Of a stretch of 39,464 nt of DNA, positions 9,884 to 39,185 are shown piece after piece (positions within the stretch are counted from its first letter, which is position 1; every line of letters begins with the position of its first letter). Under the pieces are notes generated by a model, which saw only the letters and a program-made list of their open reading frames with translations, had not been told where the DNA came from and made no database searches. A program made the position numbers and the translations under genes. The stretch lies in assembly GCF_934309415.1 (NCBI RefSeq), contig NZ_CAKRDI010000027.1, positions 1 to 39,464 on the forward strand. The letters run 5' to 3'. Source of the DNA: an uncultured Mediterraneibacter sp. (GTDB lineage Bacteria; Bacillota; Clostridia; Lachnospirales; Lachnospiraceae).

Positions 9884-9935
9884 AAAATCACTGTATAAAG
9901 AAACATCATAAGATAAGGCATAAGGGAACAGGAAT

Positions 9936-30107: not shown

Positions 30108-30206
30108 CAATAACAGATGGCTCAGACGAAGTGACAGATATGTTGCCGGCCACGAGATGTCGTGAACAGTAACACAGATTTCTATTCGAATGCGCAGATA
30201 CATTCC

Positions 30207-30291
30207 AGAGTATGTCTGAAAAATCATTCCTGCAATCTACATGCCCTACTTTACGGTATATTTTGCAGAAAGCATTTTTAAGACACACTCT
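30207..30291. mobile_element. MITE-like element, complete short copy
   Basis: An 85-bp element with ends AGAGTATGTCTGAAAAATCA and, on the other strand, AGAGTGTGTCTTAAAAATGC. Its reverse complement matches the 21614-21777 copy almost base for base outside that copy's 77-nt internal extra segment. It lies within the leader of the nitrogenase-like operon. Confidence 0.75.
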
Positions 30292-30370
30292 GATTCATAC
30301 AGATAAATAAAGCAGACTCTGACGGCAAGGAAGATCCGAGCGGGAAAAGTAACAGCAGGCGTTTTGAAAT

Positions 30371-30547: not shown

Positions 30548-31315
30548 ATGTTAAAAGTAGCAGTTTATGGAAAAGGCGGAATTGGAAAATCAACGATTAC
30601 ATCAAATCTGGCGGCGGCATTTGCGGCGATGGGAAAACGGGTGATCCAGATTGGATGTGATCCGAAAGCAGATTCTACGATTAATCTTTTGGGAGGTGTT
30701 CCGCTTCGTCCGGTCATGAATTATATGCGGGAGGAAGATGAAGAACCGGAAAAACTGGAAGAGATAGCGAAAGAAGGATATGGAGGGATCCTCTGTATCG
30801 AGACAGGCGGACCGACACCGGGACTGGGATGCGCTGGACGTGGAATTATCGCAACATTTCAGTTACTGGAAGATTTGAAATTGTTTGAGACATATCAGCC
30901 GGATGTAGTGCTCTATGACGTATTGGGGGATGTAGTCTGTGGAGGATTTGCGGCACCAATCCGGGAAGGATATGCAGAGAAAGTGCTGATCGTGACTTCC
31001 GGGGAGAAGATGGCGCTTTATGCGGCAAATAATATTTCTAAAGCCGTTCGAAACTTTGAGGACCGCAGTTACGCGAGAATCTTTGGCCTGGTGTTAAACC
31101 ACCGGAATGTGGAGAATGAGACAGAGAAAGTACAGGCTTTTTCAGAAGAAAGTCAGATCCCGATCGTAGGAGAGATTCCGCGCAGCGATGAGATCATCCG
31201 CTGGGAAGATCAGGGAAAGACCGTGATCGAAGGCGATAAAAATTCAGAGATCAGTCAGAAATTCTTTAATCTTGCCCAGTGCCTGCTGGATGGGAGACAG
31301 AAGAGAACTGAATGA
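30548..31315 (+). CDS. NifH-like ATPase (nitrogenase iron-protein homologue)
   Basis: A 255-residue P-loop reductase, somewhat shorter than true NifH. It has GKGGIGKST (9-17), [11 protein letters not shown], and the two cysteines that hold the inter-subunit [4Fe-4S] cluster: Cys95 in PGLGCAGRG and Cys131 in GDVVCGGFA. The switch II-like [11 protein letters not shown] is intact, so ATP-driven electron transfer to a partner is expected. It is the first gene of a run with two NifD/NifK-like components, so the partner is probably encoded by the next two genes. True N2 fixation is unlikely because no nifB, nifE or nifN is present. GGAGAAAAAG precedes the start. Confidence 0.93.
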
Positions 31316-31330
31316 AACAGGGAGCAATTA

Positions 31331-31363
31331 GTTACTGTTCATAGGTAATCTGCAAACAGTAAC
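31331..31363. repeat. short GTTACTGTT...AACAGTAAC palindromic repeat
   Basis: A 33-nt copy with perfect 9-bp arms GTTACTGTT and AACAGTAAC around ATAGGTAATCTGCAA-like centre sequence. It sits in the 89-nt spacer between the NifH-like and first NifD/K-like genes, where a stem-loop could protect or separate the upstream message. Confidence 0.7.
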
Positions 31364-31404
31364 AGCAATTATACATCGTAGAAAATAAAAAGGAGTACAT
31401 AAAT

Positions 31405-32874
31405 ATGGGGCAGGAAGCTTATTATTGTACAGCAAAGGAACTGGTGGAGCGTGGGAGAGAGAATCTTCCGATGCAGTTCCGGTCAGGGGCGCATCTGATC
31501 TACAGTTCTCCGGCAACACTTGCGTTTAATTCTCCGGGAGCGGAAGGATTCGGAGTTAAGCGTGCAGGACTTGCCGTACCGGATTCGATCATGTTGATCG
31601 TAGCACCGGGATGTTGTGGAAGAAATACGTCTATGATCAGTTCTATGAGAGAATACAATCATCGGTTCTTCTATTTAATGATGGATGAGACAGACATTGT
31701 GACAGGAAGACATTTAAAAAAAATTCCGAAAGCAGTGGAAGAAATCTGTGATGCATGTGAAAAGAAACCATCCGTTGTGATGATCTGCATCACCTGTGTG
31801 GATGCGCTTCTGGGAACAGATATGGAGCGTGTCTGTAAAAAAGCAGAGGAACGTGTCGGTCTTCCGGTTCGTCCCTGCTATATGTATGCTCTTACAAGAG
31901 AAGGAAGAAAACCGCCGATGGTTCACGTAAGGCAGTCGTTATATTCTCTGCTTGAGCCGGCAAAGAAAAAAGGAAATGTGGTGAATCTGCTGGGATTTTT
32001 TGCGCCGCTTGTGGATGACTGTGAACTGTATGATCTGCTGCATCAGGCAGGCGTGAAGACAATCCATGAAATCTCACGCTGTAAGAATTATGCAGAGTAT
32101 CAGACCATGTCGGAGGCAAATTTTAATCTGGTATTGCATCAGGAGGCAAGGTTTGCTGCGGAGGATTTTAACGACCGTCTGAGCATTCCGTTTATTGAAT
32201 TGAGAAGACTGTATCAGACAGATAAGATCGCGAATCAGTATCAGGCTTTGGGAGCAGCACTGGGAGTGAAATTCGAGGACGAAATCTATCGGGAAGAGGC
32301 TGGAAAAGCTCTGGAAAAGTTCCGTGAAGTCTGTCCGGATCCGGTTTTTGCAATCGGAGAATGCATGAACGGGGATCCACTGGAACTGTCTTTGGCGCTT
32401 TTGAAATATGGATTTCAGGTGGCTGAGATTTATGCTACGATCACAGCGGAAAATTTTGTGTATTTGAAGCAGATTGAGAAGCTGAGTCCTGATACGAAAG
32501 TATTTTCGAACATGGAACCGACCATGCTGTACTATGATGAAGAAAAGAGTGGCGTTACTTTGACGATAGGAAAAGATGCGGGATATTATCATCAGAATTG
32601 TCCGAATCTGTTATGGAATGAGGATCGACAACCTTATGGATATGCAGGCGTGAGACGATTGTTTGAAGCACTACGTCAGGTTGTGTCAGGTGAGCAGGTG
32701 CTGACAGGAAGTCAGATTCAACTTGGAAAACAGCTGGTATCAGAAGTCAAAGTTGCAGAAATTCATGGACAGTCGACTGACCGTTTTGAAGCAGATTGCA
32801 TCATATCAGAAAGAAACAGGCAGGAAGCTAATAAAGAAAAGAAAGAACAGGAGGCGAAGTCATGCGTGGATTAA
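31405..32874 (+). CDS. nitrogenase component 1-like protein, NifD-type
   Basis: A 489-residue member of the nitrogenase component 1 / oxidoreductase superfamily. Recognisable parts are the VAPGCCGRNTS motif (Cys70, Cys71), the ICITCVDALLGTD segment (Cys128, Cys131) that corresponds to the T-C-x-x-x-x-GDD cysteine loop of NifD/BchN, and a C-terminal NEDRQPYGYAGVRRLFEALR typical of the third Rossmann domain. The position of the first P-cluster cysteine of NifD reads FNSPGAEG here, so cluster ligation must differ. The C-terminal ~35 residues are charged low complexity. The ribosome site is AAAGGAG. It overlaps the next gene by 13 nt. Substrate unknown; it is not a canonical nitrogenase. Confidence 0.85.
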   Translation: MGQEAYYCTAKELVERGRENLPMQFRSGAHLIYSSPATLAFNSPGAEGFGVKRAGLAVPDSIMLIVAPGCCGRNTSMISSMREYNHRFFYLMMDETDIVTGRHLKKIPKAVEEICDACEKKPSVVMICITCVDALLGTDMERVCKKAEERVGLPVRPCYMYALTREGRKPPMVHVRQSLYSLLEPAKKKGNVVNLLGFFAPLVDDCELYDLLHQAGVKTIHEISRCKNYAEYQTMSEANFNLVLHQEARFAAEDFNDRLSIPFIELRRLYQTDKIANQYQALGAALGVKFEDEIYREEAGKALEKFREVCPDPVFAIGECMNGDPLELSLALLKYGFQVAEIYATITAENFVYLKQIEKLSPDTKVFSNMEPTMLYYDEEKSGVTLTIGKDAGYYHQNCPNLLWNEDRQPYGYAGVRRLFEALRQVVSGEQVLTGSQIQLGKQLVSEVKVAEIHGQSTDRFEADCIISERNRQEANKEKKEQEAKSCVD

Positions 32875-33974
32875 GAAAATACCTGACACCATTTGCACCG
32901 GATCAGTCAGGAGCCGTCTCTGTATTATTTGAACTGGGTGGAATCCTTGTCATCTGTGATGCGGGTGGATGTACCGGAAATGTCTGTGGATTTGATGAAC
33001 CGCGCTGGTTTGAACGGAAAAGTGCCGTGTTTAGTGCCGGACTTCGTGATATGGATGCAATCCTGGGAAGAGATGACCGTCTGGTGGCAAAGCTGGCAGA
33101 CGCAGCAGGAAAGCTTGGAACAGATGCGAAATTTGCTGCAGTGATCGGAACTCCGGTACCGGCAGTGATTGGTACAGATTACCAGGCGTTGAAAAGAATG
33201 TGCGAGAAGAAAACGGACCTTCCGGTTCTTGCAGTTGATGCTAATGGAATGGAACTGTATGATGCCGGAGAAGAAAAGGCATATCTGGAACTGTTTCGTG
33301 TATTTGCCGGAAAAAATGAAAACAAGAATGATTTCTCGGAAAAGAAGGCTGGATGTTCAGAGGCAGAGGAAGTCGAGAGAGTGGGAATCCTTGGGATGAC
33401 ACCGCAGGATATGAGTGATTTAAACATTTCAGAGAGAATGAAAAAGGTTCTCTGGGACAATGAAAAACAGAAAGCGGTCTGTTATGGAATGGGAGATGGA
33501 CTGGAAGAAGTACGCAGAGCAGGAACTGTGAGTAGGAATCTGGTTGTGTCTCCGGCAGCGCTGAAAACTGCAAAATATCTGGAAGAAACATTCGGAACAC
33601 CGTATGAAGTGACGTATCCGCTGGCAGGAGAGCTGGTTCCTGATATGGATTATACAGGAAAGAAAATTCTGATCGTTCATCAACAGGTCATCGCGAATTC
33701 AATCAGGGAGGAAATTCGAAGACGATGTGCAGAAATTTCTGAGAATGAAGATGCAGCCCCAGAGGTGCAGGTTGCAGGATGGTTCATGATGAAACCGGAG
33801 CTGAAAGAAGAACAAGACAGATCCTTGCGTGATGAAGACGATTATATTTCTCTGGTTGAGCAAGAAGGATATGATGTGATCTTTGCAGATGGATGTATGA
33901 AATGCATGACACCGGGGCATCACGGAGTTTTTGTAAATACGGTACATTTTGCAGTGTCTGGAAAATTAGCATAA
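32862..33974 (+). CDS. nitrogenase component 1-like protein, NifK-type partner
   Basis: A 370-residue protein, short for this superfamily. The N-terminus has ICDAGGCTGNVCGFDEP with Cys32, Cys37 and Cys42, a plausible cluster-binding loop, then FSAGLRDMDAILGRDDRL, which lines up with the E-x-D-x-x-F-G-G-x-x-K-L segment of NifK-like subunits. The C-terminus contains DGCMKCMTPGHHG with two more cysteines. Two charged inserts (about nt 33310-33375 and 33735-33845) break the fold. The start has AGGAGG 8 nt upstream inside the previous gene, so the two subunits are probably made in equal amounts and form a complex reduced by the NifH-like protein. Catalytic role unknown. Confidence 0.78.
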   Translation: MRGLRKYLTPFAPDQSGAVSVLFELGGILVICDAGGCTGNVCGFDEPRWFERKSAVFSAGLRDMDAILGRDDRLVAKLADAAGKLGTDAKFAAVIGTPVPAVIGTDYQALKRMCEKKTDLPVLAVDANGMELYDAGEEKAYLELFRVFAGKNENKNDFSEKKAGCSEAEEVERVGILGMTPQDMSDLNISERMKKVLWDNEKQKAVCYGMGDGLEEVRRAGTVSRNLVVSPAALKTAKYLEETFGTPYEVTYPLAGELVPDMDYTGKKILIVHQQVIANSIREEIRRRCAEISENEDAAPEVQVAGWFMMKPELKEEQDRSLRDEDDYISLVEQEGYDVIFADGCMKCMTPGHHGVFVNTVHFAVSGKLA

Positions 33975-34086
33975 TGTACATGAAAAAATATGTCAGAGAA
34001 AAAGATCTTATTATTTAGGTTCAGATCAATCATTGTGATGATTAGACTGAATGTATTCAACAAGATGTTTGAATTAGGAGAAGAAA

Positions 34087-36594
34087 ATGGAAAATGAGAG
34101 AACCATGCAGATTCGGGTATATGGAATCGTGCAGGGGGTTGGATTCCGACCGACGGTGAGCAGACATGCAATGACCAGTGGAATCCGTGGAAGTGTGAGT
34201 AATAAAGGTCCTTATGTGGAGATTCTGGCACAGGGAAGTGAAAAACAGATAAATGATTTCCTGGAATTGTTGAAAAAACAGCCGCCAAAGCGTGCTGCGA
34301 TCCTGAAAATCAGTACAGAATTGCTGGATGACCGGAAAGCAGATCATCCTTCTTATGATTCTTTTGAGATCATTGAAAGTGAAAAGACAAAGGGAGAGAT
34401 CTTTGTGTCACCGGATATTGCAATCTGTGAGGAATGTAAAGAGGAGTTGTACAATCCAAAAGACCGGAGATATCTTCATCCATTTATTAACTGTACCTGC
34501 TGTGGCCCGAGGCTGACAATTTTAGAAGAACTGCCTTATGACAGAGAGCGGACCAGTATGAAAGAATTTCCAATGTGTCCGGAATGTGAGGCAGAATACA
34601 CAGATCCGGAGAGCAGAAGATACGATGCACAGCCGGTATGTTGTAATGAATGTGGACCGCAGGTTTATCTGATCGGAAGAGAAGAGCGGGGAGCGGAAGC
34701 GATTACATATGCACGTCGGACGATTGCCTCCGGTGGAATCGTGGCAGTGAAAGGAATCGGTGGATTTCATTTATGCTGTGATGCAACGAATAAAGCAGCG
34801 ATAGAAACTCTGAGAAAACGGAAGCGCCGCCCAATGAAACCATTTGCTGTGATGGCAAGAGATCTGGAAGTGGTGCAGCGGGAGTGTATCGTTGGTGAAC
34901 AACAAAAAGAAATATTAACAGGACATCAGAAACCGATTCTTTTACTGAAAAGACGAAAGACATCCGAAGAATCTCCGGAGACAAGACTTTGTGAGGCTGT
35001 GGCACCGGAAAATCCAAAAGTGGGAATGATGCTTCCATATGCACCGGTTCAATTGTTATTATTTCAATATGAAGATGAAGTTGAGATGCCGGATCTTCTG
35101 GTGATGACGAGCGGCAATATTTCAGGAGCGCCGATTTGCCGCGATGACAGAGATGCAATCGAGGAATTATCTGACCTGTGTGATTGTATGTTATCTCATG
35201 ACCGCAAGATTCTGATCCGTGCAGATGATTCGGTGATGGATTTTTATCAGGATGAACCTTATATGATTCGGAGATCCAGAGGATATGCACCACTTCCGGT
35301 CTTTCTTTCTCAGGAAATGAAAGGACAGGTGCTGGCAATCGGCGGTGAACTGAAAAACACGTTCTGTGTGGGATCTGAGAACCGGTTTTATCCATCGCCT
35401 TACGTGGGAGATCTGGAAGATCTCAGAACAGTAAAGGCATTGCAGGAGACATCAAAACGACTGTCTGATCTGTTAGAAGTTACCCCGGAAGTGGTGGCGT
35501 GTGATCTTCATCCGAAATACAATTCAACCCGTGTGGCAGAAGAAATGGGACTTCCGGTTGTGAAGGTACAGCATCATTATGCACATATTTTATCCTGTAT
35601 GGCAGAAAATGACTGCAGCGATCCGGTCATTGGAGTATCCTTTGACGGAACCGGTTATGGAACAGATGGAACTGTATGGGGCGGTGAAATATTACTGGCA
35701 GATTATCATGGATTTGAACGATATGGAAGTATCGAGCCATTTTTGCAGATCGGAGGAGACATTTCTGCGAAAGAAGGCTGGCGAATTGCGGTTTCACTGA
35801 TCTATTCACTGACAAAGGACAGAGAGAAAGCTGCGGAACTGATCAGAAAACTGAATCTGTGCAGTGAGACGGAAGCGAAAGTACAGCTTACAATGGCAGA
35901 ACGGAAGCTCAATGCAGTCAGCTCAACCAGTGCGGGAAGACTGTTCGATGGAATCAGTGCGATTCTCGGAATCAGACATTCTTCCACTTTTGAGGGGGAA
36001 GCCTCCATGGCACTGGAATTTGCAGCCAAAGAGTATGAGACTCGACAGAAATCGCTACAAGATGTGGAAAGTGAAAATGGAACCAATGAAAATGAAATAA
36101 AAGAAATCGATAGACAGAAAACATCAGAACAGAATGAAACAGCAGAATCTGGTACCAAGCAGGAAAGCGAGAGGAAGATCCTTCCGACACTTGAACTTGT
36201 GAGAGAAGCTGTTGAGGCTGCAGTTTCCTGGATAGAAAATGGTGAAAATAACACAGGTTCTGAGAGCGATGATGAAAAACTGGAAGATATAGAAAAATTT
36301 ACAGAAGATACGAAAAAGTTGTCACAGGAAAAGGCTGCATATGAATTTCACAGAGGACTCGCAGAGCAGGTCGTTGCGGTTTGTGAACAGGCGAGAACAG
36401 AGACAGGAAGAAATACAGTGGCACTCAGCGGCGGAGTGTTTCAAAATCGCTTGTTGTTGAAAATGACAGAAGAAGGATTAAGCGCGAGAGGATTTCAGGT
36501 GCTGAGACACAGGATGATTCCGCCGAATGACGGAGGTATCGCACTGGGACAGGCTGTGTATGCAATGGAGTATCTGAAAACAATTAAAAGTTAA
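34087..36594 (+). CDS. hypF: carbamoyltransferase HypF, cyanide-ligand synthesis
   Basis: HypF converts carbamoyl phosphate and ATP to a carbamoyl adenylate and loads it on HypE for CN ligand synthesis. At 835 residues it is longer than the usual ~750. Order: acylphosphatase domain (about 5-95, VQGVGFRPTV), two C-x2-C-x18-C-x2-C zinc fingers (Cys114/117/136/139 and 164/167/186/189), a YrdC-like domain (about 200-385), and a Kae1-like domain with VQHHYAHILS and GVSFDGTGYGTDGTVWGGE. About 80 extra Glu/Asn/Lys/Ser-rich residues (about nt 36050-36180 and 36235-36335) interrupt the last domain. It follows the NifK-like gene by 112 nt on the same strand and starts the hyp block. Confidence 0.95.
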   Translation: MENERTMQIRVYGIVQGVGFRPTVSRHAMTSGIRGSVSNKGPYVEILAQGSEKQINDFLELLKKQPPKRAAILKISTELLDDRKADHPSYDSFEIIESEKTKGEIFVSPDIAICEECKEELYNPKDRRYLHPFINCTCCGPRLTILEELPYDRERTSMKEFPMCPECEAEYTDPESRRYDAQPVCCNECGPQVYLIGREERGAEAITYARRTIASGGIVAVKGIGGFHLCCDATNKAAIETLRKRKRRPMKPFAVMARDLEVVQRECIVGEQQKEILTGHQKPILLLKRRKTSEESPETRLCEAVAPENPKVGMMLPYAPVQLLLFQYEDEVEMPDLLVMTSGNISGAPICRDDRDAIEELSDLCDCMLSHDRKILIRADDSVMDFYQDEPYMIRRSRGYAPLPVFLSQEMKGQVLAIGGELKNTFCVGSENRFYPSPYVGDLEDLRTVKALQETSKRLSDLLEVTPEVVACDLHPKYNSTRVAEEMGLPVVKVQHHYAHILSCMAENDCSDPVIGVSFDGTGYGTDGTVWGGEILLADYHGFERYGSIEPFLQIGGDISAKEGWRIAVSLIYSLTKDREKAAELIRKLNLCSETEAKVQLTMAERKLNAVSSTSAGRLFDGISAILGIRHSSTFEGEASMALEFAAKEYETRQKSLQDVESENGTNENEIKEIDRQKTSEQNETAESGTKQESERKILPTLELVREAVEAAVSWIENGENNTGSESDDEKLEDIEKFTEDTKKLSQEKAAYEFHRGLAEQVVAVCEQARTETGRNTVALSGGVFQNRLLLKMTEEGLSARGFQVLRHRMIPPNDGGIALGQAVYAMEYLKTIKS

Positions 36595-36667
36595 CTGAAT
36601 ATGACTTCTGAGTTTCTGAATCAGAAGAAACGAGAGGTTTAGAAATAAGAAAAAGGAGCGGAAAAAA

Positions 36668-36877
36668 ATGTGTGTCGGATTATCAGCAAAAGTAGTAAGA
36701 ATCAGTGATGGAACAGCGATGGTTGATGCAGGCGGTGCCAAAAGAGAAGTGTCTGCACAGCTTTTGGAAGATCTGGAACCGGGAGATTATGTGATGGTGC
36801 ATGCAGGTGTGGCGATTGCAAAGATCACAGATGAAGACGAGAATGAGACAGATCAGTTGCTGGATGACTTATTATAA
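36668..36877 (+). CDS. hypC: HypC-family Fe(CN)2CO chaperone
   Basis: A 69-residue small chaperone. The N-terminal MCVGL has the essential Cys2 that, after Met removal, binds the iron. A beta-barrel-type body reads EVSAQLLEDLEPGDYVMVHAGVAIAKI. HypC shuttles the Fe(CN)2CO group between HypD and its target protein, and in known systems it is specific for a hydrogenase large subunit. Here no such subunit is in the window, so the recipient is unknown. AAAAAGGAG serves as ribosome site. It lies between hypF and hypD with spacers of about 73 nt on each side. Confidence 0.95.
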   Translation: MCVGLSAKVVRISDGTAMVDAGGAKREVSAQLLEDLEPGDYVMVHAGVAIAKITDEDENETDQLLDDLL

Positions 36878-36951
36878 GGATTCAATGTTTGCAGTTACAG
36901 ATAGTTGTAAACATCGAAGCAGGGAAAATGGATAAAGGAGAGGAAAAAGGA

Positions 36952-38004
36952 ATGGAAGCTGCAAAGAAAGGCAGACGAACAGCGAAAGAAATTATAGAGC
37001 AATATGACGGACCGGCAGTGCGGATCATGGAAGTATGTGGAACGCATACCCATGAAATCTTTCGGCTTGGAATTCGGAAACTGCTTCCGAAACAGGTGGA
37101 ACTGATCTCAGGACCGGGATGTCCGGTCTGTGTGACCCCCGTCAGTTTTATCGATGAGGCGGTCTGGCTTGCACTGGAAAAGAAAGTGACGGTCTGTACG
37201 TTCGGAGATCTGGTACGTGTGCCGGGAACAGAGAAAAGTCTGGCGGGAGCAAGAGCGGAAGGGGCGAAGATCCAGATCGTATATTCACCGGCGGATGCAG
37301 AAAAATATGCGAAAGAACATCCGGAGGAAGAAGTGGTATTTCTTTCAGTCGGATTCGAGACGACCACTCCTGCATCCTGTCTTTCTGTGAAGCAGGCGAA
37401 AGCAGATGGAATTGAAAATTACTCGATTCTGACTGCAAATAAGACCATGCCGGGAGCCTATGAATCGTTGAAAGGAAGTGCAGATATCTTTCTTTATCCG
37501 GGACATGTCAATGCGATTACGGGAACAAAATTGTGTGAAGAACTGGTACAGGAAGGTGTCAGCGGAGTGGTAGCCGGTTTTACGGCAAAGGAACTGTTGA
37601 CTGCACTTGCGGTGGCGCTGACACGTTTTCAGGAGGGAAAACCATTTTTTGTAAACTGTTACCCGAGAGTAGTAACAGAAGACGGAAGTATAGAAGCACA
37701 GAAACTGGTAGAAGAGCTGATGGAAGTGTGTGACAGTGAATGGCGAGGCCTTGGAATGATTCCGAATTCAGGAAGCAGGCTGAAAGAAACCTGGGCGAAC
37801 TATGATGCAAGAAAGAAATATAACGTACCAGAGATTCATGGAAAACCAAATCCTGCCTGCCGATGTGGGGATGTTCTGCAGGGAAAATGCAAACCATCAG
37901 ACTGTAAGGTATTTGGAAAAGTCTGTACACCGCAGCATCCGGTGGGAGCATGTATGGTATCGAATGAAGGAGCATGTTCAGCTTATTATATGTATGGGCA
38001 ATAA
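36952..38004 (+). CDS. hypD: HypD, Fe(CN)2CO scaffold protein
   Basis: An iron-sulfur scaffold on which the Fe(CN)2CO group is assembled with HypC and HypE. The 350-residue protein shows the conserved cysteines Cys29 in MEVCGTHTHE and Cys57/Cys60 in GPGCPVC. A C-terminal cluster region (CRCGDVLQGKCKPSDCKVFG and later Cys) ligates a [4Fe-4S] cluster. The start at 36952 was chosen for AAAGGAGAGG about 9 nt upstream; in-frame ATG 36928 and TTG 36889 would add tails not expected in the family. All hallmark residues are present, so the protein is likely functional even though no hydrogenase genes are nearby. Confidence 0.95.
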   Translation: MEAAKKGRRTAKEIIEQYDGPAVRIMEVCGTHTHEIFRLGIRKLLPKQVELISGPGCPVCVTPVSFIDEAVWLALEKKVTVCTFGDLVRVPGTEKSLAGARAEGAKIQIVYSPADAEKYAKEHPEEEVVFLSVGFETTTPASCLSVKQAKADGIENYSILTANKTMPGAYESLKGSADIFLYPGHVNAITGTKLCEELVQEGVSGVVAGFTAKELLTALAVALTRFQEGKPFFVNCYPRVVTEDGSIEAQKLVEELMEVCDSEWRGLGMIPNSGSRLKETWANYDARKKYNVPEIHGKPNPACRCGDVLQGKCKPSDCKVFGKVCTPQHPVGACMVSNEGACSAYYMYGQ

Positions 38005-38165
38005 AAATTCCTATAAATTGTATAGTGTCTGCTGGAAATATAGTGTTCAGATTTAAGAAATCACTAAGGAAATATATCTGTAATAAACTAAAAAGATATA
38101 CTTACAATTTATAAAGAAATAAAATAATTAACAAACAGAACAAATATGGAAAAGAGGATGAAGAC

Positions 38166-39185
38166 ATGGAACATGGAATGAAAGATCAGACTGTGACAAT
38201 GGCGCATGGTGCCGGAGGAAAGCAGACTTCAGAATTGATTGATAAAGTATTTGCAGCGCATTTTGCAAATCCGGACCTGACGGCAGATGATGCAGCAGTA
38301 TTAGTACCGCCGGCAGGTAAAATGGCAGTATCAACAGATGGATTTATTGTCTCCCCGGCATTTTTTCCGGGAGGAAATATTGGAAAACTGTCAATCTGCG
38401 GAACAGTCAATGATCTGGCATGTATGGGAGCAAAACCGTTGTATCTGACCTGTGCATTTGTAATCGAAGAAGGATATCCGATGGAAAAACTGGAAGAGAT
38501 TGCTTGTGCAATGGAAAAAACAGCAAAAGAAGCCGGTGTCAGAATCGTTTCAGGTGACACCAAAGTTGCCGGAAAAGGTCAGGTGGACGGAGTCTTTATC
38601 ACAACAACAGGAATGGGACAGATAGAAGAAGGTGTAACTGTAGCCGGAGATCTTGCAAAGCCGGGAGATGCGATCATTGTTACCGGAGATATTGGAAGAC
38701 ACGGATGTACAATTCTTCTGGAAAGAGAAGAATTTGGAATTGAAGCAGATGTGACAAGTGACTGCGCGCCACTTTGGAAAACGGTAGAGGCTGTGATGAA
38801 CACAACGCATGATTTGCACGTAATCCGCGATGCTACAAGAGGCGGAGTCGGAACAGTATTATATGAAATTGCCGGCCAGAGTAATGTAGGAATTCAGATC
38901 GATGCATCCAAAGTTCCGGTAGCACTGGAAGTAAAAGGTGTCTGCGGAATGCTTGGACTTGAACCACTTTACCTCGCATGCGAGGGAAGAATGGTAATCA
39001 TTGCACCAAAAGCCGAGGCAGAAAAGATCGTAGAGACACTTCATCAGTGTCCATATTCACAGAATGCCGCAATCATCGGAGAAATAACCGAAGATCAGCC
39101 GGGCAAAGTAGTCATGCTAACAGAAATCGGAACCCAGTCACTCCTCCCACAACCAGGAGGAGAATTGTTGCCACGCATATGCTAA
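38166..39185 (+). CDS. hypE: HypE, carbamoyl dehydratase for cyanide ligand
   Basis: HypE takes the carbamoyl group from HypF on its C-terminal cysteine and dehydrates it with ATP to a thiocyanate, which gives CN to iron on HypD. The 339-residue protein has the PurM/AIR-synthase-like fold (GAGGKQTSELI, DDAAVL, GDTKVAGKG, RDATRGGVGTVL) and the invariant C-terminal PRIC, so the acceptor cysteine is intact. GAGG lies 8 nt upstream. The 161-nt gap after hypD is strongly AT-rich and could hold a weak extra promoter; no structure was recognised. No hypA or hypB follows before the repeat array at the window edge. Confidence 0.96.
   Translation: MEHGMKDQTVTMAHGAGGKQTSELIDKVFAAHFANPDLTADDAAVLVPPAGKMAVSTDGFIVSPAFFPGGNIGKLSICGTVNDLACMGAKPLYLTCAFVIEEGYPMEKLEEIACAMEKTAKEAGVRIVSGDTKVAGKGQVDGVFITTTGMGQIEEGVTVAGDLAKPGDAIIVTGDIGRHGCTILLEREEFGIEADVTSDCAPLWKTVEAVMNTTHDLHVIRDATRGGVGTVLYEIAGQSNVGIQIDASKVPVALEVKGVCGMLGLEPLYLACEGRMVIIAPKAEAEKIVETLHQCPYSQNAAIIGEITEDQPGKVVMLTEIGTQSLLPQPGGELLPRIC

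Follow-up and report, generated by a model that had tools for sequence, protein, structure and literature searches.

Hydrogenase maturation and nitrogenase-like systems

The CO and cyanide ligands of [FeFe]-hydrogenase are attributed to HydG, and PMC11736057 and PMC13360658 describe how this enzyme makes both from tyrosine and passes an Fe(Cys)(CO)2(CN) synthon to HydE, which builds a di-iron precursor that HydF finishes and delivers. Here, we describe a block of seven genes, nifH1-nifD1-nifK1-hypF-hypC-hypD-hypE, near one end of a stretch of 39,464 nucleotides from an uncultured Mediterraneibacter sp. (contig NZ_CAKRDI010000027.1 of assembly GCF_934309415.1; "the window" refers to this entire stretch), which is likely to be half of a HydG-independent system for maturing [FeFe]-hydrogenase. 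In the Hyp families, HypF and HypE turn carbamoyl phosphate into cyanide, and HypC and HypD build Fe(CN)2CO. As in HydE-HydF-HydG maturation, relatives of the window's locus have HydE, HydF, TM1266, and a group A [FeFe]-hydrogenase, partly clustered, but HydG passes its cut-off in none of 41 relatives and in none of 23 genomes carrying D2, a second NifD-like protein, and nitrogenase-like pairs stand in HydG's place. As in HypABCDEF maturation of [NiFe]-hydrogenase, the block's HypF, HypC, HypD, and HypE are full members of their families by curated cut-offs, whereas HypA is found in only 7/41 relatives and the [NiFe] large subunit in only 2/41, and the block is linked to [FeFe]-hydrogenase genes.

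The nitrogenase-like members of the block, NifH1, D1 (nifD1), and K1 (nifK1), can be compared with three further systems. NifEN, the scaffold of FeMo-cofactor assembly, is likewise a maturase with the nitrogenase fold and has the solved sequences nearest to D1 and K1. However, D1 lacks a cysteine opposite the presumed NifE cofactor ligand, falls far under the TIGR01283 cut-off, and is paired, along with K1, with Hyp and Hyd proteins. The dark-operative protochlorophyllide oxidoreductase (DPOR; BchLNB) and CfbCD also place a NifH-type ATPase and a component-1 pair in a biosynthetic pathway, but NifH1 is under the BchL and CfbC cut-offs, no tetrapyrrole genes occur among the named cluster genes, and the predicted substrate is organometallic. 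Methylthio-alkane reductase (MAR) and the nitrogen fixation-like (NFL) sulfonate systems are nitrogenase-like HDK operons outside N2 fixation (PMC12552129, PMC11423573); they differ from this locus in their neighbors, and the match of D2 to MAR is just 24.4 bits. Two sulfoquinovose papers only cite another nitrogenase-like enzyme. No open-license PubMed Central paper searched by title and abstract linked nitrogenase-like genes, Hyp, and loss of HydG; subscription journals were outside this search, and prior print is possible. For some acetogens, the authors of PMC9431212 were puzzled by genomes with HydE and HydF for which no hydG was found. The system described here may bear on such genomes.

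Content and conservation of the block

All seven genes are intact and lie on the + strand with short gaps between them:

30548..31315, + strand: nifH1, NifH-like ATP-dependent reductase component (PF00142, 302 bits; GKGGIGKS and GCAGRG motifs)
31405..32874, + strand: nifD1, NifD/E-like subunit of the first component-1 pair (PF00148, 107.9 bits)
32862..33974, + strand: nifK1, short NifK/N-like partner of D1 (PF00148, 56.6 bits)
34087..36594, + strand: hypF, carbamoyltransferase starting cyanide synthesis (TIGR00143, 758.6 bits; cut-off 466.1)
36668..36877, + strand: hypC, 69 aa, Fe(CN)2CO scaffold and chaperone (TIGR00074, 65.9 bits; cut-off 48)
36952..38004, + strand: hypD, [4Fe-4S] scaffold (TIGR00075, 395.3 bits; cut-off 192.8)
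38166..39185, + strand: hypE, carbamoyl/cyano carrier via its C-terminal cysteine (TIGR02124, 423.8 bits; cut-off 251.6)

The length of homologues and a site resembling a ribosome-binding sequence guided the choice of 36952 as the hypD start; mechanically, the open frame starts at TTG 36889. All four Hyp proteins exceed their NCBIfam cut-offs and have the expected catalytic residues, making the HypFCDE set complete. HypE ends in PRIC, HypC begins with MC (Cys2), HypD has CGTHTH and GPGCPVC, and NifH1 keeps its P-loop and cluster cysteines, motifs which we take to carry the functions associated with them in Hyp and NifH proteins. An earlier reading of the same DNA by a model (the original prediction) had claimed NifH-, NifD-, and NifK-like genes joined to a complete hypFCDE set on one strand with small gaps, and a NifH-like ATPase with both cluster cysteines. 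These observations are confirmed, and the system proves wider than could be seen there: the window stops 279 bases past hypE, inside repeats, so that the downstream genes known in relatives were out of view. All statements below on the continuation beyond hypE come from loci and genomes of relatives rather than from the window's own genome.

A scan of species genomes with D1 yielded 41 loci, 39 of them with D1 itself (at least 55% identity) and two with another type (25 to 26%). The titles of block-bearing records name Blautia, Coprococcus, Anaerobutyricum, and others. Gene order was counted in the 24 D1 loci having at least 9.9 kb after D1. D1-K1-hypF-hypC-hypD-hypE occur in this order and on a single strand in 24/24, so the joining of nitrogenase-like genes to hypFCDE is conserved and the chance adjacency that the original prediction had kept as its alternative is contradicted. 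D2 and its partner K2 follow hypE in order in 23 of the 24 loci, the exception (L001) running off its end after nifH2, and in 21 a TM1266 gene comes after hypE, ahead of D2 or of the end of the locus. Within the available flanking DNA, HydF is present in 7/24 loci and HydE in 3/24; an ATP-binding cassette (ABC) importer was seen in none of the 24. The names of these neighbors follow NCBIfam, with TM1266 at 109.7 bits (cut-off 60.8), HydF at 553.2 (cut-off 325.55), and a partial HydE at 240, under its cut-off of 254.6 because it is cut by the locus end. Two loci include the hydrogenase gene: L118 reads hydrogenase-H1-D1-K1-hypFCDE-TM1266-D2-K2-HydF-HydE, and L107 reads hydrogenase-HydE-HydF-TM1266-H1-D1-K1-hypFCDE. 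Both hydrogenases are group A [FeFe]-hydrogenases (TIGR02512, 490 bits in L118 and 475.2 in L107; cut-off 405.95). In two genomes, G312 and G407, the D2 set is on a separate contig, indicating that the halves can be parted as modules and that both are retained.

An [FeFe]-hydrogenase partner without HydG

The hydrogenase partner of the block in relatives is [FeFe], not [NiFe]. Of the 41 genomes behind the D1-scan loci, 39 have a HydF and 38 an [FeFe]-hydrogenase that exceeds its cut-off; HydG passes in none of them, and the T. maritima control passes. The [NiFe] large subunit and HypA pass only in the few genomes counted above (HypB was not searched). The claim that the block comes without hypA, hypB, or a hydrogenase thus stands in most relatives as regards HypA and the [NiFe] enzyme, but it missed the [FeFe]-hydrogenase, and a [NiFe]-hydrogenase in every block-bearing genome, which the original prediction had named as the observation that would count against it, was not what we found. 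The hyp genes could in principle be chance neighbors or serve a [NiFe]-hydrogenase elsewhere in the genome, as two Anaerobutyricum genomes might suggest, with a [NiFe] large-subunit match (read as group-4-type) and HypA on the same contig. Against this, gene order is kept in all 24 loci and [NiFe] large subunits and HypA are rare; on these locus and genome counts we reject both readings and regard them as very improbable. In L077 (G004), HypA lies near a ferredoxin-domain oxidoreductase that by eye resembles the HypA/HypB-linked oxidoreductase of PMC10134865, and a linkage of this type may be the reason why HypA turns up sporadically where [NiFe]-hydrogenase is lacking.

Weak HydG matches were considered as disguised HydG and set aside, since they resemble other members of the radical SAM superfamily: the one examined at ~200 bits is ThiH (528.6 bits), and those of 60 to 86 bits coincide, where compared, with HydE positions.

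We also examined the converse in 392 genomes from the class of G002, a Blautia, with 95% completeness requested (values not printed); G002, G006, and G032 are common to this sample and the 41 relatives. With thresholds of at least 480 bits for D1 and at least 448 bits for D2, HydG was found in 232 genomes, HydF in 258, D1 in 17, and D2 in 23. The 23 D2 genomes include all 17 D1 genomes, and every one of them is HydF positive and HydG negative. The 258 HydF genomes divide into 228 with HydG, 23 with D2, 7 with neither, and 0 with both (intersections were done by hand, and totals agree), an exclusion with a hypergeometric p of about 5e-27 when kinship is ignored. HydE was present in 47/47 D1/D2 genomes and in 26/26 HydG genomes tested, the latter hand-picked as 20 high-ranking HydG genomes and 6 with lower scores. 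[FeFe]-hydrogenase was present in 22/23 D2 genomes and in 7/7 HydF genomes where both HydG and D2 are absent; HydE, too, is missing from four of these. This pattern of gene content gives good support to the view that a nitrogenase-like system stands in for HydG in [FeFe]-hydrogenase maturation.

Of the 74 HydE proteins in a maximum-likelihood tree, 48 belong to D1/D2 genomes, 23 to HydG genomes, and 3 to genomes with neither; three of the 26 HydG genomes (G368, G100, and G160, with weak HydE) were omitted. The D2 label changes 11 times on this tree, at least 5 of them forced by strongly supported branches, compared with 21.5 when shuffled. Such repeated changes indicate that HydG and the nitrogenase-like system were swapped, or that HydE moved between such genomes, several times. 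On the tree, HydE proteins of D2 genomes do not group apart from the others, and the substrate that HydE encounters may therefore be of one kind in both systems.

It could instead be that the nitrogenase-like pairs and HypFCDE, much as in the original prediction, build or carry the cofactor of their own reductase, acting on another substrate, while an unrecognized enzyme matures the HydG-free hydrogenases. Such an arrangement would suit the component-1 fold of the D2 model, the tie between D1 and HypD, the standing of TM1266 as merely a putative regulator, and three genomes that have HydE, HydF, and [FeFe]-hydrogenase without HydG and D2 (all below). However, it leaves unexplained the exclusion of HydG (no overlap in 258 HydF genomes), the repeated switches on the HydE tree, and the presence of hydE, hydF, and an [FeFe]-hydrogenase gene in the same cluster, and we consider it unlikely. 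The original prediction had joined an ATP-driven reductase to a nickel-free Fe(CN)2CO-type cofactor. The combination fits, but because the cluster in relatives adds TM1266, the D2 set, and in some cases HydF and HydE, without HydG, the H-cluster is the likely product and not a cofactor of the reductase.

Family, cysteines, and fold of the nitrogenase-like proteins

The nitrogenase-like proteins fall outside the established families. NifH1 scores 310.1 bits against TIGR01287 (cut-off 394.35), 211.2 against BchL (cut-off 345.15), and 299.7 against CfbC (cut-off 402), and is therefore not an equivalog of NifH or of its DPOR and CfbCD counterparts. D1 scores only 34.6 bits against NCBIfam nifD (cut-off 653.55) and is not a canonical nitrogenase NifD. 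D1 and K1 are far under the cut-offs of all named nitrogenase families that they match, including TIGR01283 for D1, and Pfam recognizes only PF00148 in each. By sequence, the closest solved chains for D1 are NifE, with scores to a NifEN of 58.9 bits for D1 and 44.4 bits for K1.

Cysteines 70, 71, 128, 131, and 144 of D1 are invariant in a 20-row alignment, and Cys71 and Cys131 align opposite NifE cysteines; K1 has invariant Cys37 and Cys42 (18-row alignment), and K2 has one invariant cysteine. At the position of the NifE cysteine equivalent to NifD Cys275, which we take to be the cofactor ligand, a profile alignment places His, Asn, or Asp in 20/20 D1 rows. Where NifE and MAR have their presumed cofactor cysteine, D1 lacks a cysteine altogether and D2 lacks a conserved one, and for this reason we expect a DPOR-like site in both, in which an iron-sulfur cluster would feed electrons straight into a bound organometallic substrate.

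The structure model of D2 shows a component-1 fold, with near-equal Z scores (about 22 to 23) to BchB, NifN, VnfK, and MAR chains, which point to the fold and not to a nearest family. A structure model of a D1-K1 fusion was set aside at a mean predicted local distance difference test (pLDDT) score of 60.6, and alignment A4 was discarded since MAFFT had placed K1 rows over the D1 half. Natural D1-K1 fusions occur among homologues (four read, 773 to 854 aa). A natural NifH2-D2 fusion of 698 aa occurs in one genome (L106:10709-12805, - strand).

Two versions of the system and a proposed pathway

The nitrogenase-like system occurs in two versions. In the 392-genome sample, HypD is present in 17/17 D1 genomes, whereas it was found in 0/8 genomes with D2 but without D1 (six from that sample plus G040 and G041). 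All eight D2-only loci (L095, L098, L040, L041, and L109 to L112) instead have a substrate-binding protein, a permease, and an ATPase inside the D2 operon. This importer is nearest to siderophore, heme, and B12 families (BtuCDF/FecBCD type) and under their cut-offs where tested (L095). As read from sequence, its ATPase has a terminal TM1266-like domain in 6/8 loci (L098, L040, L041, L110, L111, and L112), a feature connecting the importer with hydrogenase. H1-D1-K1-hypFCDE and the importer thus look like alternative suppliers of whatever H2-D2-K2 needs.

In the pathway that we propose, HypF and HypE would make cyanide from carbamoyl phosphate and HypC and HypD would assemble the Fe(CN)2CO unit, roles suggested by the chemistry of these families. 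NifH1-D1K1 may then apply ATP-driven low-potential electrons to this unit or to its CO supply. NifH2-D2K2 would carry out the common step that yields a synthon competent for HydE, with a net loss of one cyanide and gain of one CO per iron, and HydE and HydF would finish as in the standard route. In D2-only genomes, the iron-complex-type ABC importer would replace the window's block, as though the precursor were scavenged. D2 is present in all 23 HydG-replacing genomes of the 392-genome sample. On this reading, HypFCDE would provide an Fe-cyanide-CO unit, and the nitrogenase-like pairs would remodel it for HydE and HydF. Where D1 is present, it is plausible, at about even odds, that the pathway starts from Fe(CN)2CO made by Hyp. 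More tentative, and in our judgment rather doubtful, is the full scheme of a second, tyrosine-independent route to the H-cluster, in which two nitrogenase-like reductases would convert Fe(CN)2CO to the HydE substrate and bacteria lacking Hyp and D1 would import their neighbors' iron-cyanide-carbonyl precursor through the ABC importer.

D1 and D2 might also act in H-cluster maturation without making CO or cyanide, by supplying low-potential electrons to HydE or HydF, building the dithiomethylamine bridge, or protecting an intermediate, with CO and cyanide coming from Hyp alone where D1 is present and from an unknown source where it is not. The occurrence of D2 in 23/23 HydG-replacing genomes, 17 of them with HypD, would fit such a role, and HydE and HydF without HydG are described in PMC9431212 as giving about 1% activation in vitro with stray CO and cyanide. 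Yet organisms of the HydG type need no D2 to supply electrons or to make the bridge, and what D2 genomes lack is a ligand source, and we hold such a role to be quite improbable.

Several observations weigh against replacement of HydG by the nitrogenase-like system or against parts of the proposed pathway. The support for replacement is genomic, and D2, TM1266, HydE, and HydF are not within the window itself. In L032, a different gene comes after hypF, and hypC and the genes beyond it are found on a second contig of that genome. HydF is under its cut-off in 2/41 relatives (G021, where it is cut by the contig end, and G023), and [FeFe]-hydrogenase was not found in 3/41 (G023, G026, and G033) or in the D2-only genome G374. 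G168, G263, and G297 have HydE, HydF, and [FeFe]-hydrogenase but lack both HydG and D2, which implies either a further route or a gene that was missed; these possibly represent a third maturation route or assembly gaps. Eight genomes have a distant D-like family scoring 199 to 327 bits to the D2 profile, under a clear score gap, and six of these are HydG positive (G160, G100, G129, G379, G251, and G417; the others are G154 and G352). Opposite the MAR cysteine, D2 has Cys in 4/14 or 6/19 rows and other residues elsewhere, in a weak alignment (24.4 bits, its best sequence match to a MAR chain). As for the chemistry, the CN:CO ratio of Fe(CN)2CO is opposite to that of the HydG product, Hyp-made Fe(CN)2CO cannot arise in D2-only genomes since they lack HypD, and where these genomes would obtain CO or cyanide is not known.

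The bearers of the system are some gut and rumen bacteria that make [FeFe]-hydrogenase without HydG, mostly in the version with D1 and HypCDEF. If our reading is correct, part of gut hydrogen metabolism depends on an unrecognized cofactor pathway, two hydrogenase cofactor pathways are joined, and the nitrogenase fold gains a role in organometallic assembly; an imported iron-cyanide-carbonyl precursor would be a shared organometallic "vitamin" of the gut. The system might also bear on where Hyp obtains its CO in anaerobes, a question not known to be settled.

A conserved leader upstream of nifH1

A conserved motif precedes the block in the window and recurs in relatives:

30312..30350, + strand: conserved leader motif of 39 nt, 198 bp upstream of nifH1, a short RNA hairpin with conserved internal loops
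L118:4443-4482 and 9892-9935: leader motif in a relative
L122:12052-12088: leader motif in a relative

Searches with blastn and iterated nhmmer found the motif in 33/39 D1 loci, from Blautia to rumen clades, and a covariance model added L019. In L118 and L122 it occurs again upstream of hypC. Covariance-model matches to an E value of 0.1 across 96 sources fell only in loci of D1 genomes and in the window. Rfam gave no match to the motif at the gathering threshold; the sole others were two microRNA-type chance matches with E values of no more than 5, located at 30206-30292 of the opposite strand.

The structure was assessed in alignment A7, which holds 37 of 46 nhmmer hits and omits L085, L086, and L119 (same sites as other loci), L009, L028, L035, and L091 (near-copies), L017 (truncated), and a partial second L001 hit. 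In these 37 rows, 95.9% of cells in the proposed hairpin are paired, compared with 22 to 47% when the pairing is slid. The closing pair occurs as five types (GC, GU, AU, CG, and UA), loop length varies, and 3 of 8 pairs are invariant. Leader regions including flanks have a weak consensus fold (-6.4), and support for structure comes from the 37-row core. Many rows show by eye a second hairpin, with an AAGGAG-type sequence and a T run and ending at the nifH1 start, which would hide the ribosome-binding site. Altogether, the leader motif is a candidate cis-regulatory RNA of the operon, potentially a new riboswitch of this pathway.

At the other end of the block, directly 3' of hypE, the segment 39264-39464 has two copies of a 74-bp direct repeat at a distance of 127 bp, and a perfect 19-bp hairpin lies between the copies.

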